A stretch of 64,000 nt of DNA from an uncultured Acidimicrobiaceae bacterium (lineage in GTDB: Bacteria > Actinomycetota > Acidimicrobiia > Acidimicrobiales > Ilumatobacteraceae): assembly GCA_937890395.1 (NCBI GenBank), contig CALACK010000070.1, positions 1 to 64,000 on the forward strand. Reading direction: 5' to 3'. Positions 38,316 to 43,840 of this stretch are shown here, piece after piece. The notes under the pieces are model-generated. The model saw only the letters and a list, made by a program, of their open reading frames with translations. It was not told the DNA's origin and made no database searches. Numbering within the stretch: position 1 is the stretch's first letter; every line of letters starts with the position of its first letter. Position numbers and translations under genes: made by a program.

Positions 38316-38447
38316 GGCTCATATTCCGTTTTGATTCATTTGTTATAACTTTCGATAGTTGCCAAAGTTGATGTGACTCAATACCCTTGACATTTCCTAA
38401 CTAATGGCCAGCATCCTGCTGTCCTACTCCTAGGGGGAGAAAAATAA
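38316..38447 (+). promoter_or_regulatory. leader/promoter region of the binding-protein gene
   Basis: About 130 bases without a gene. TTGACA at 38387-38392 is a perfect -35 box, but no good -10 lies 16-18 bases downstream (best CATCCT, spacing 19). A strong purine-rich Shine-Dalgarno, GGGGGAG, stands at 38433-38439 before the ATG at 38448, in keeping with the high expression normal for substrate-binding proteins. No other structure is evident. Confidence 0.35.
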
Positions 38448-39800
38448 ATGAAGAAAACTACAACGCAACGCTTCGGTGCGCTTGTTGTTGGTCTCAGCCT
38501 TTTGGCTGCGGCTTGCGGCGGCTCCGATGCAGCAACAGAAGATACAACAGCAACAGCCGAAACTGCAGCACCTGCTGCAACAGGTGGCGAGTTAGCTGGA
38601 ATGAAAGGTACAACACCACTTGTTGAGTTGACTCAAGAGTTCAAAGATGCAGTTAATGCATTTTGGACAGGCAAAGGCAACGAAGCACTTGTTGACTTCA
38701 ACTACACGGCAGAATCATTTGACGCTGTAATGTTGGTCGCACTTGCCGCAGAGGCTGCAGGAACAGATGGCAGCGCACTCGCTGACCAACTAGTTGCTGT
38801 TTCAAAAGATGGTACTAAGTGCACAGCGGCCACATGGGCTGATTGTCTTGCAACAATCAAAGCGAAGGGCGACGTCGACTATGACGGTTTCTCTGGTCCA
38901 AACACATTGAACGGTAACGGCGAGCCTCTTGAGGCTTCGTACGGCATCCTTCAATTTGGTGCAGATAATCGTCTTGATGACGCACTTACTACATACCAAC
39001 TTGCTTACGCTCCAGAATCTGCAGTATTGCCACTGTCAAAGACAGAAGTTGCTCGTAAGGGTAACGGTGTTCTTAAAATCGGTGGACTTCTTCCAGAAAC
39101 TGGAAACCTCGCATTCCTTGGTGCTCCAATGATTGCTGGTGTTGAGTATGCAATTGATTACCTAAACAACGCTGGCGGCGTTCTTGGCAAGCCAGTTGAA
39201 TACAGCGCAGGAGATTCCGGCGACACTTCAACTGACACAGCCAGCGTGACTGTTGATCGATTGCTCGCAGAAGGTGTAGACGCCATTATTGGTGCAGCAT
39301 CATCTGGTGTATCGCTCACAGTTATCGACAAGATCACTGCAGCAGGTGTTATTCATTTCAGCCCAGCGAACACTTCGCCTAAGTTGACTTCATACGCCGA
39401 CAATGGTCTCTTCTTCCGTAACGCACCACCGGATGACCTCCAGGGTGCAGTACTTGCAGAAGTAATCGTCGCTGACGGAGTACAGTCTGTTTATATCATG
39501 GCGCTTGACGATGCTTACGGCACCGGACTTGCAACAGTTGTAGAAGAAGTTCTTACAGCAGCTGGTGTAAAAGTATTGGGCAAGAAAATCTACGATCCTA
39601 AGGCAACAACATTTGATGCCGAAGTCGGAGAGATTGTTGCTGCTAACCCAGACGCAATCGTCTTGATCACATTCGATGAGGGCTCACGTATTCTTCGCAC
39701 AATGGTGGAGAACGGCGTTGGACCAACAGCGAAGATGGTCTATGGCGTTGACGGAAACATTGGTAACGCACTCGGCGAGAACTTTGACGCTGGTAAGTAA
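38448..39800 (+). CDS. branched-chain amino acid (HAAT) ABC transporter substrate-binding lipoprotein, apparently circularly permuted
   Basis: A 450-residue lipoprotein: signal peptide with LAAAC (Cys23), then a Thr/Ala-rich linker to about 47. Residues 48-178 (TPLVELTQEFKDAV, NYTAESFDAVML, YDGFSGPNTLNGNG, SYGILQFGADNRLD) correspond to the usual C-terminal part of Liv-type binding proteins. Residues 208-450 (VLKIGGLLPETGNLAF, DDAYGTG) are the usual N-terminal part. The order is therefore reversed, and the protein stops at NALGENFDAGK, exactly where normal relatives continue into the segment found here at the N-terminus. All parts of the fold seem present. It lies opposite livFGMH and probably feeds that transporter. 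Confidence 0.9.
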   Translation: MKKTTTQRFGALVVGLSLLAAACGGSDAATEDTTATAETAAPAATGGELAGMKGTTPLVELTQEFKDAVNAFWTGKGNEALVDFNYTAESFDAVMLVALAAEAAGTDGSALADQLVAVSKDGTKCTAATWADCLATIKAKGDVDYDGFSGPNTLNGNGEPLEASYGILQFGADNRLDDALTTYQLAYAPESAVLPLSKTEVARKGNGVLKIGGLLPETGNLAFLGAPMIAGVEYAIDYLNNAGGVLGKPVEYSAGDSGDTSTDTASVTVDRLLAEGVDAIIGAASSGVSLTVIDKITAAGVIHFSPANTSPKLTSYADNGLFFRNAPPDDLQGAVLAEVIVADGVQSVYIMALDDAYGTGLATVVEEVLTAAGVKVLGKKIYDPKATTFDAEVGEIVAANPDAIVLITFDEGSRILRTMVENGVGPTAKMVYGVDGNIGNALGENFDAGK

Positions 39801-39826: not shown

Positions 39827-39855
39827 AGTCCCCGGGCGAAAGCCCGGGGACTTTT
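39827..39855 (+). terminator. strong rho-independent terminator after the binding-protein gene
   Basis: AGTCCCCGGGC, loop GAAA, GCCCGGGGACT: a perfect 11-bp stem closed by a GNRA tetraloop at 39838-39841, followed by TTT. It ends the plus-strand transcript 27 bases after the stop codon and also separates it from the convergent livF operon. Confidence 0.9.
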
Positions 39856-39906: not shown

Positions 39907-40638
39907 TCAGCCACCAGTTGATTTGGCAAGCGTGCCAAGATACAACTTGATTACATTCTGGTCTGTCAATAGATCTTTGCCTGTCCCCGTGTAGGCATTC
40001 TTGCCTTGGTCTAGGACATACGCGCGATTTGAAACTTGCAGACATCTGCGAGCATTTTGTTCGACCATTAATATCGCGATGCCCTCAGCGTTGATCTTCT
40101 TGCACTGAATAAACACTTCGTCTTGAAGCACTGGTGAAAGCCCTGCTGAAGGCTCGTCAAGTAACAAGAGTTTTGGCTCCATCATCAGTGCTCGGCCCAT
40201 TGCGACCATCTGACGCTCTCCACCTGAAAGCGAGCCAGCCTTTACTGAAGCGCGCTCAAGCAATCGAGGGAAAAGTGTCGAAACATATTCGAATCGATTT
40301 TTAAAAACCGACGGTTTCAGAAAACACCCCATCTCGAGGTTTTCGGTGACTGTAAGACTCGGGAATACGTTTCGGTTTTGTGGAACGTACCCCACACCAC
40401 GTTCAACCAATTCGTGCGCTTTGAAACCTGTGATGTTAAGTTCACCTAATTTGATTTCTCCGCCACGAACCGAACATTCTCCCAAAATGGCTTTAAGTAC
40501 AGTCGACTTACCGGCGCCATTTGGTCCGATGACTCCAACGAATTCACCTTGCCCGACTGTGATGTTGCAACCATTCAAAATATTCACTTCAGGGATATAT
40601 CCGGCAACTAATTCTTTTACATCAAGCACCGAAGTCAT
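39907..40638 (-). CDS. livF: branched-chain amino acid ABC transporter ATPase LivF
   Basis: A 243-residue ATPase. Walker A GPNGAGKST, signature LSGGERQ, Walker B LLLLDEPSAGLSP and the switch histidine region are all present. The short loop after Walker B and GVGYVPQNRNVFPSLTV identify LivF of the HAAT family. It pairs with LivG, whose stop it overlaps by 4 bases. Last gene of the livH-livM-livG-livF operon. Confidence 0.95.
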   Translation of the reverse strand: MTSVLDVKELVAGYIPEVNILNGCNITVGQGEFVGVIGPNGAGKSTVLKAILGECSVRGGEIKLGELNITGFKAHELVERGVGYVPQNRNVFPSLTVTENLEMGCFLKPSVFKNRFEYVSTLFPRLLERASVKAGSLSGGERQMVAMGRALMMEPKLLLLDEPSAGLSPVLQDEVFIQCKKINAEGIAILMVEQNARRCLQVSNRAYVLDQGKNAYTGTGKDLLTDQNVIKLYLGTLAKSTGG

Positions 40639-41513
40639 ATTTGAACCTCATCCAAGAGAGATGACCCTTGGTGCAGGCCGAGATATGCCTCGACGACTTT
40701 TTCGTTATTTGAGATTTGACTTGGAGTTCCTTCGGCGATGACCACACCTTCTGACATCACAACAACCCAGTCTGCAACGTCGTTGACCATATCCATATCG
40801 TGTTCAACGAAAAGCACTGTCATGCCATCATCGCGTAAGCCCCTGATGTGTTCGTTTAAGTTTTGTTTTAATGCAGGGTTAACACCAGCCATCGGTTCAT
40901 CAAGCATCACTAAACGTGGCTCAGTCATCAGCGCTCGTGCCATCTCTAGCAATTTACGTTGACCACCAGAAAGTGTGCCGGCATACTCATTGCGCATGTG
41001 ATCCATATTGAATCGTTTTAATAGAGCATCAGCCCGCTCTTCGATTTTCTTTTCCTGTGATCTCCATAGATACGGAAGAAGACCGTTCCACCACTTCTCG
41101 CCTACTTGATGCATTGCTCCAAGTTTCATATTTTCAATAACTGACATTTTTGTCAGACTTTTTGTCAATTGAAATGTGCGCACCATACCCATGCTCGCAG
41201 TTTGATGAGCGGCAACGCGAGACATATTGTGCCCGTCAAAACGCCATTCACCAACATCGGGTTTATCAAAACCGGAAAGAAGATTGAATAACGTTGTCTT
41301 GCCCGCACCATTTGGGCCAATCAAAGCAGTAATTGAGCCACGTTGTACTTCGATATGCGAAACATCTACAGCGACGACCCCACCGAAATGGCGACGAACA
41401 CCGTCTGCTACCAAAATTGGATCAGGTTTAGAAACACCTGGGGTTGATTCAATTGTCGCTAGCGCCGCTTGAACGTTTGTTGCTAGCTCACCGTAATTTC
41501 GTTCAGCGACCAT
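40635..41513 (-). CDS. livG: branched-chain amino acid ABC transporter ATPase LivG
   Basis: About 292 residues. Walker A GPNGAGKTT, signature LSGGQRK, Walker B LVMLDEPMAGVNP, and the LivG-type HFGGVVAVD start of the core. It carries about 30 extra residues before the core, which is unusual but mild. I use ATG 41513, overlapping livM by 11 bases; an in-frame TTG further upstream would overlap by 62 bases. It forms the ATPase pair with LivF under LivHM. Confidence 0.94.
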   Translation of the reverse strand: MVAERNYGELATNVQAALATIESTPGVSKPDPILVADGVRRHFGGVVAVDVSHIEVQRGSITALIGPNGAGKTTLFNLLSGFDKPDVGEWRFDGHNMSRVAAHQTASMGMVRTFQLTKSLTKMSVIENMKLGAMHQVGEKWWNGLLPYLWRSQEKKIEERADALLKRFNMDHMRNEYAGTLSGGQRKLLEMARALMTEPRLVMLDEPMAGVNPALKQNLNEHIRGLRDDGMTVLFVEHDMDMVNDVADWVVVMSEGVVIAEGTPSQISNNEKVVEAYLGLHQGSSLLDEVQI

Positions 41514-42507
41514 CGAGTGCCATTTCTTGACGATTGCCAAACAACCCTTGCGGTCTGAAGACAATCAACAGCATCAAACCGATACCGACGAACATGTAGT
41601 TGACGGCTCCAACCTGCGTGCTTTGAATGACGGTGAAGTCACCAATTCGAAGTGGTCCATTGCGAGTGATTTCACGTAAGACATTGTCGGAGAATACAAA
41701 TAACAACCAAAACAACATCGAGCCAACGACTGATCCAGCGACCTTCGCTAGACCACCCAAAACGAGTGCCGTGAGAATATAGAACGTCACCATTCGGCTG
41801 TAGTTATCTGGTTGAACAGATCCACGATCGAGTGCTAAAACCATTCCTGCGAACATACCGATAACGCCACCAATTACAAGCGCCTGCATTTTGTATGCAT
41901 AGACGTTCTTTCCGAGGCTTCGCACCGCATCTTCGTCTTCGCGAATGCCCTTAACAACTCTGCCCCAAGGGCTGCGCATCAACTGCCAAGTGAAAAGCGA
42001 GAAGATGCCAACTAAAACCCAGCCAATAATAATTGTGTACAGCGAGTATCCCGTATACGTAAAGGGACCAAATCCATATTTCTTACTTGGGTTGAACGGA
42101 CTGAGCTCACGATATTGGCGACTGAAGTTAGTGATGCCGTCGGTGCCACCAAATAACCGTTTTAATTTTACAGAGCGCACAAATAGCCGCACGATCTCGG
42201 CAGTGGCAATTGTAACTATTGCTAAATAATCAGCACGTAACCGCAAAGTTGGGATGCCAACAATTAACGCAAGTATTATTACGAAAAATATTCCAAGCGG
42301 AATACCCCACCACAGACCAACACCAAAGTATTGCGCCGTCATGCCTAAACCGTACGAACCGCAAGCCATAAAAGCCGCCTGACCAAAGTTGAGCATGCCC
42401 GTGTAACCGAAGTGAATATTTAAACCCAAAGCAGCAATCGCAAAATAGATTGCGTCAACGCCGATCGATGCACGAAGCGTATTTTCAATGATCTTAATCA
42501 AATCCAC
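41503..42507 (-). CDS. livM: branched-chain amino acid ABC transporter permease LivM
   Basis: A 334-residue integral membrane protein with about nine hydrophobic segments. GYTGMLNFGQAAFMACGSYGLGM is the LivM hallmark near residues 34-56, and LRADYLAIVTIATAEIVRL is the coupling-helix region. It forms the channel with LivH. Start is GTG 42507, one base after the livH stop, so the two are coupled. The length is normal for the family. Confidence 0.94.
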   Translation of the reverse strand: MDLIKIIENTLRASIGVDAIYFAIAALGLNIHFGYTGMLNFGQAAFMACGSYGLGMTAQYFGVGLWWGIPLGIFFVIILALIVGIPTLRLRADYLAIVTIATAEIVRLFVRSVKLKRLFGGTDGITNFSRQYRELSPFNPSKKYGFGPFTYTGYSLYTIIIGWVLVGIFSLFTWQLMRSPWGRVVKGIREDEDAVRSLGKNVYAYKMQALVIGGVIGMFAGMVLALDRGSVQPDNYSRMVTFYILTALVLGGLAKVAGSVVGSMLFWLLFVFSDNVLREITRNGPLRIGDFTVIQSTQVGAVNYMFVGIGLMLLIVFRPQGLFGNRQEMALDGR

Positions 42508-42508
42508 G

Positions 42509-43840
42509 TCAACCCACCCTTTGGCTTCTACCGAAAATACCCTGCGGGCGAATAATCAGCACCAGTATCAAAATAAATAATGCAGGGGCAACTTTCAGTT
42601 CACTCGGGAAGAATAGTGATGACATTTCTACAAAGATCCCGATAAAGAAACCACCTACTAGCGCACCGTACGCAGAGCCGAGTCCACCGAGCGTAATGCC
42701 GGCAAACATCAAGAAAATTAAATCTGATCCCATTGAGAAACTTACCTGTTCGTCAAGTCCACGGAAGATGCCGCCAGTTGCAGCCAGCGCTCCACCAGCA
42801 AACCAAACAATGCGGATTACTTTTTGGGTGTCAATACCTGTGGCTGACGCAAGTTGCACATTGTCACTAACCGCTCGAATTGCCTTGCCAAGTCTTGATT
42901 TTTGTAGAGAAAATGCTATCGAGAGCAAAATAATTACCCCAAGTATTGCAGTCGTTAAATCTCGCGGAGTAATACCGATAGGACCTATCTCGAGATTCAC
43001 TTGCTTTGAAAAACTTGTGAGTTGCTTGGTTCGCCCACCGAATAGAAAAAGATAAAAATTGATCAACATCAGTGAGAGACCAAGCGATACGACTAACTGC
43101 GAATTAGAGCCGATACCCCGCTTTGTCAAACGAGCAAAAATACCCCAGTTGATAAGTAGTCCGAAGCAGCCACCCAACAGAATCACAAGAGGCCCACAAA
43201 TCAAAATCGGAATATCCAAATAAACGTTGAAGAAAAACGCAACAAGGGCCCCAAATGTAACCATCTCTCCATGTGCGAAATTTGTCAAACCAGTCGTACC
43301 AATAATTAATGAAAGACCGACTGAGCACATTGCGATAATGATTCCGAGGCGAATACCGTCAGTTAGACGTTGCAAAATGCGCTCTAATTCGGTTGAACCG
43401 GCAATGCCACTATCACCCGTAAAAAAAGTAACTCGTTTCGTGTTTGTTGTAAATAAACCCTGGTCGACTTTGACTTGCGCTTTAGCCGCATCAATGAGCG
43501 TGAGTCCGTTCGGCAACGAAGATGTATCTATGTCAATTAAATAGTTATCTCGAGTCGGCACGGCAATTTTGCAAAGTCCATCTGCGCCAGTAATGCCTTC
43601 GCCGATCAACATGCCGTCAACCGTTGTGACTTTTATAGTGGCTCCTGCGACTGGGGTGCGCTCTGGTACATCGTTAACCAAAAGCTGATTCTGAACACTG
43701 GCAATGATAAAAAATTCGCCCTCATCGGCCGCACTGGCCGAACTCGATGCGAGACCGAGACCTGCAACTATCGAACAGATCACAGCTAACAGGACCTTGA
43801 GCCAAATGTGACCAACATCCGGACCAGATCTCTTCAACAT
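42509..43840 (-). CDS. livH: LivH-type permease with secreted N-terminal domain
   Basis: A 443-residue protein, about 150 longer than usual LivH. Residues about 1-37 are a signal peptide (SSSASAADEGEF at the likely cleavage site). Residues about 40-110 look like a carboxypeptidase-regulatory or Ig-like beta sandwich (TPVAGATIKVTTVDGMLIGEG, then GADGLCKIAVP). The permease core starts near 165 with SLIIGTTGLTNFAHGEMVTFG, the LivH hallmark, and has about eight membrane segments. The extra domain should face the outside, close to the binding protein docking side. First gene of the liv operon. Confidence 0.92.
   Translation of the reverse strand: MLKRSGPDVGHIWLKVLLAVICSIVAGLGLASSSASAADEGEFFIIASVQNQLLVNDVPERTPVAGATIKVTTVDGMLIGEGITGADGLCKIAVPTRDNYLIDIDTSSLPNGLTLIDAAKAQVKVDQGLFTTNTKRVTFFTGDSGIAGSTELERILQRLTDGIRLGIIIAMCSVGLSLIIGTTGLTNFAHGEMVTFGALVAFFFNVYLDIPILICGPLVILLGGCFGLLINWGIFARLTKRGIGSNSQLVVSLGLSLMLINFYLFLFGGRTKQLTSFSKQVNLEIGPIGITPRDLTTAILGVIILLSIAFSLQKSRLGKAIRAVSDNVQLASATGIDTQKVIRIVWFAGGALAATGGIFRGLDEQVSFSMGSDLIFLMFAGITLGGLGSAYGALVGGFFIGIFVEMSSLFFPSELKVAPALFILILVLIIRPQGIFGRSQRVG

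Follow-up and report, generated by a model that had tools for sequence, protein, structure and literature searches.

The window, a stretch of 64,000 nucleotides, carries on its forward strand an open reading frame (38448..39800) for a circularly permuted substrate-binding lipoprotein of the HAAT/Liv type, 450 aa in length. A Shine-Dalgarno-like AGGGGGAG, read from the sequence, lies 8 bases 5' of the ATG (38432..38439, + strand). The chain opens with a lipoprotein signal peptide whose end is of the lipobox type (...LLAAAC23; 38448..38516), as the first-pass annotation had claimed; Cys23 is invariant across 24 aligned homologues, with signal peptide and Cys judged by eye, which is consistent with export as a lipoprotein. 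A short Ala/Thr/Glu low-complexity spacer of variable length and predicted disorder follows (residues 24-47; 38517..38588), after which the mature chain starts at AGMKGTTPLVEL. Residues 48-187 (38589..39008) are the old C-terminal part, which now comes first and contains two cysteines, C125 and C133, that are invariant in the homologue alignment. A new linker of about 19 residues (188-206; 39009..39065) connects the former C-terminus with the former N-terminus; it is predicted to be ordered (pLDDT 83-94), and its conservation is centred on APES and V.R.G.G. The old N-terminal part (residues 207-450; 39066..39797) now comes last, covers positions 2-230 of Peripla_BP_6 and ends in GENFDAGK. Close to this end lies Asp435 (codon 39750..39752), aligned with the Asp in the SGDGIVSNEL stretch of Atu2422 (3ipc); we take the latter to be a ligand-contact position and hence Asp435 to be its counterpart. 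All of these features are on the + strand.

An intrinsic terminator with an 11-bp stem (39827..39852, + strand) begins 26 bases past the stop codon and separates the gene from a convergent set of transporter genes on the - strand: the ABC ATPases livF (39907..40638) and livG (40635..41564), followed by the BPD_transp_2 permeases livM (41503..42507) and livH (42509..43840). LivH is N-terminally extended by about 150 residues ahead of its permease domain, and the extension resembles a small secreted beta-type domain.

Each segment of the binding protein is present once, the old ends are joined, and the new ends lie inside what is normally a continuous chain. Pfam PF13458 (Peripla_BP_6) matches residues 209-437 with its positions 2-230 of 343, that is, the first two thirds of the profile (1.4e-37), and residues 49-207 on their own match the C-terminal end of ANF_receptor (positions 268-350 of 353) with an E-value of 1.9e-5, slightly below the curated cut-off. 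Separate profiles made from the N part and the C part were run against canonical and permuted homologues. In canonical homologues (L023, L024, the Spirilliplanes protein L066 and many others) the N-part match is followed directly by the C-part match with no gap; in L023, for example, the N profile (1-242) falls at residues 210-451 and the C profile (2-138) at 456-589. The C-part profile scores 81-151 bits against most canonical homologues. In the window protein and its kin the order is the reverse of the normal one, with the C-part match first and the N-part match second. The window protein ends in ...NALGENFDAGK, and the continuation of this sequence in relatives, GMKGTTPLVEL, is the stretch found at its mature N-terminus, just as the first-pass annotation had observed. 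That annotation had assigned residues 48-178 to the C-terminal part and let the N-terminal part begin at 208; both identities hold, with the first segment running to about 187, residues 188-206 forming the linker and the second segment spanning 207-450. Its reading of an intact 3' end followed by a terminator agrees with the stem at 39827. A truncated gene with a leftover fragment is ruled out by the completeness of the two segments and by the terminator behind the gene.

The permuted order recurs in 20 of 28 genomes of the same genus (about 20 species; three of the 20 cases are contig-end fragments). An order-wide sample of 397 genomes gave 18 with it, spread over 14 other genera in 8 families, and a class-level sample added further cases. 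A separate collection, which overlaps in part with the genomes already counted, contributes about 35 records with the same junctions, mostly freshwater and marine assemblies of the Ilumatobacteraceae type. A plasmid collection gave no recognised permuted match, its best match (Nonomuraea) being in normal order. One genome carries, in addition to a closer permuted gene, a highly divergent permuted paralogue (L107:1328-2869; 79 and 124 bits to the two parts), and one single contig holds two tandem permuted binding-protein genes (L109:1-4000). The source genome is a draft of 219 contigs and tandem binding-protein genes occur in relatives, so one could suppose that tandem normal-order genes were collapsed or mis-joined in a draft metagenome. 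However, dozens of independent assemblies share these junctions at 66-96% identity, some of these records come from large-contig assemblies, and permuted genes with a second cut site are found on single-contig, near-complete Micromonosporaceae genomes. With the junction order conserved across genera in independent assemblies, an assembly error is ruled out for all practical purposes. The permuted order is common to dozens of actinobacterial genera and is an old clade-wide trait, probably with more than one origin.

The predicted structure agrees with the segment order. Modelled with 24 permuted homologues, the whole protein gave a pLDDT of 81 and a pTM of 0.81 in AlphaFold, with ten-residue means of 83-95 over residues 51-210; the first segment, folded alone from a comparable alignment, gave a pLDDT of only 51 and a pTM of 0.39. 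The prediction thus suggests that the first segment requires the other in order to fold, since its pTM alone is 0.39 as against 0.81 for the whole. In the model the two segments complete one another in a single complete fold, the outcome that the first-pass annotation had made decisive for its proposal. Its suggestion that each segment be aligned separately to LivJ/LivK structures was borne out for one of them. In Foldseek and VIA searches, which align in chain order and so cover residues 206-450 only, this part of the chain superposed on residues 1-241 of 3ipc; 4n0q, 4gnr and further structures of the LivJ type matched likewise, and Z reached 17.7. The C-part profile run against PDB sequences returned composition-like helical matches that are uninformative. 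Taken with the segment order, the independent assemblies, the gene context and the selection described below, this bears out the proposed circular permutation. The 450-aa lipoprotein is a circularly permuted Liv/HAAT binding protein from which no sequence is missing, and we have next to no doubt that this is a genuine, fixed permutation.

How often the permutation arose was addressed with trees built after all sequences had been restored to the normal order. The clade of the window protein forms one group (SH-aLRT 98 in one tree; 100/98 in another). A second form, family f138, belongs to the Micromonosporaceae, because the DNA of one member is identical to a Spirilliplanes yamanashiensis record; here the permuted protein occurs in 56 of 81 genomes, many of them single-contig, the mature chain starts at RLYGTDGNM and ends in VIKALxxAGVxxRH, and the cut precedes that of the window form by about 26 residues. 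The two natural cut sites flank Asp435, which therefore lies near the chain end in the window form and near the chain start in the Micromonosporaceae form. A third group, family f100 (L132 and L133, from another class), has a cut site identical to that of the window form, yet it groups with a normal-order gene (L117) at 100/98. Its two halves are both closest to normal-order genes, and a chimeric origin of the pair, with halves from different parents, was not seen.

A single origin for all permuted forms, with the Micromonosporaceae cut site produced by a later shift of the termini, is rather unlikely. Holding the main clade and the Micromonosporaceae clade together was not rejected by the AU test (p=0.18); however, the best tree separates them, the permuted sequences need three changes in 200 of 200 bootstrap trees, and the cut points do not coincide. 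Forcing together all permuted sequences in the f100 tree, which would trace that pair and the main clade to one event, was rejected (AU p=0.0017), a result to be read with the caveats that gene conversion between paralogues could mislead the trees and that the test loses force because the groups were defined with the trees already in view. We thus consider it likely, judging from these trees of rearranged alignments, that the permutation had at least two origins and perhaps three, always within the same region of the chain; three origins would be the best reading of the trees. We offer more tentatively, as something we doubt more than we believe, that HAAT permutation is recurrent and selected in Actinomycetota, with at least three events flanking the Asp loop that would each move the anchor to the second lobe, add a fourth inter-lobe link and alter tether, closure or docking.

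The surroundings of the gene speak to its function. It lies tail-to-tail with livF-livG-livM-livH in essentially all relatives for which the contig is long enough (L033-L067, L199-L201, L213), and normal-order homologues occupy the equivalent locus, likewise tail-to-tail with livFGMH, in L066, L212, L214, L215 and L217. The permuted form is therefore the normal gene's counterpart at one and the same locus. Comparison of the window gene with its nearer relatives gives a dN/dS of about 0.03-0.14 in both halves, indicating strong purifying selection, and the source genome, about 91% complete so that a copy could have been missed, yielded no second PF13458 protein. The residues that align with the ligand region are Ser285/286, Thr309 and Asp435, and from this alignment we infer a putative amino-acid binding activity, the ligand probably being an alpha-amino acid. 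We consider it highly likely that the permuted protein works as the binding protein of LivFGMH.

Given the unusual order of its segments, the gene might instead be decaying or non-functional, with LivFGMH served by another binding protein. This is very improbable: both parts are under selection, the ligand-region and Cys residues are invariant, the predicted fold is complete, and the genome search just described turned up no alternative protein. A changed role, for instance as a sensor, scavenger or surface receptor that no longer delivers to LivFGMH, seems improbable as well. In its favour, a moved anchor could alter docking, and the Micromonosporaceae genes (about 16 neighbourhoods, L191-L195, L198 and L202-L211) have no complete liv permease/ATPase cluster within stretches of 12-18 kb. 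In the clade of the window, however, the gene adjoins livFGMH across genera and encodes the sole candidate binding protein found in the source genome; the Micromonosporaceae form, with no liv genes nearby, is a likelier candidate for a changed role. The best explanation overall, and a very probable one, is a functional LivFGMH lipoprotein of the amino-acid type that was most likely permuted via tandem duplication and would carry its anchor on the other lobe.

Circular permutations usually arise by tandem duplication with partial loss. A binding-protein gene beside livFGMH would have been duplicated in tandem, after which copy 1 would have lost its first part and copy 2 its last. The resulting chain begins inside the normal C-terminal lobe, continues to the old C-terminus, crosses the ordered linker to reach the old N-terminus and stops one helix past the ligand-binding Asp loop. 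In LIV-binding proteins the second lobe includes the C-terminal tail as well as the stretch where both cuts fall; if this holds here, the lipid anchor would now be attached to the second lobe rather than the first, and the new linker would tie the lobes once more, as a fourth inter-lobe connection. The Venus flytrap closure around an amino acid would be retained, followed by handover to LivHM(FG). The first-pass annotation had proposed this route by duplication and partial deletion, and it is plausible, with two living parallels of the duplication stage: Nonomuraea gerenzanensis has three tandem normal-order binding-protein genes adjoining livFGMH (L227:5342-10640), and members of family f35 carry a conserved fused double HAAT binding protein of 818-828 aa (N-C-N-C) with two PF13458 matches per chain, adjoining a single-copy gene (L102:946-3399, L103:894-3347, L104:824-3277 and L111:4966-7449). 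For the lineage of the window protein itself we found no direct or partly resolved duplication intermediate.

Because permuted and normal genes share a locus in sister taxa, a direct comparison can test what the permutation does to folding, hinge motion, anchoring and docking on the transporter, and the natural cut sites are ready guides for sensor engineering. The trait is easily overlooked, as standard profile annotation detects only half of each protein; NCBIfam holds no model that spans the permuted order. The classical natural circular permutations are those of concanavalin A, which arises by processing, and of swaposin and the DNA methyltransferases, which arose by duplication and partial loss; none of these is an ABC-transporter binding protein. 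To our knowledge, natural circular permutations of two-lobe proteins with multiple crossings have rarely been described. Searches of the open-access literature found engineered permuted binding proteins and no earlier report of a natural one in ABC transporters, which accords with what the first-pass annotation had stated, and we provisionally regard a permuted HAAT binding protein as undescribed. With the Liv/HAAT proteins (PF13458; LivJ/LivK, Atu2422 3ipc, 4n0q, 4gnr) the window protein shares the elements of the fold, the motifs of the ligand region, export as a lipoprotein and the liv neighbourhood; it differs in that its segments are swapped, its new termini lie one helix past the ligand-contact Asp and a linker spans the old ends. 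Permuted halves of the ribose-binding protein of T. maritima have been engineered and show that chains cut anew are compatible with the type I fold (PMC9815098). Those are isolated lobes made in the laboratory, whereas the window protein is natural and full-length. Fukami-Kobayashi 1999, as cited in PMC9815098, proposed that type I was converted to type II via a tandem domain swap. Both cases rewire the two-lobe fold; the conversion is an ancient change in the order of the inter-lobe strands, whereas in the window protein the spatial arrangement was apparently kept and the ends alone were moved.
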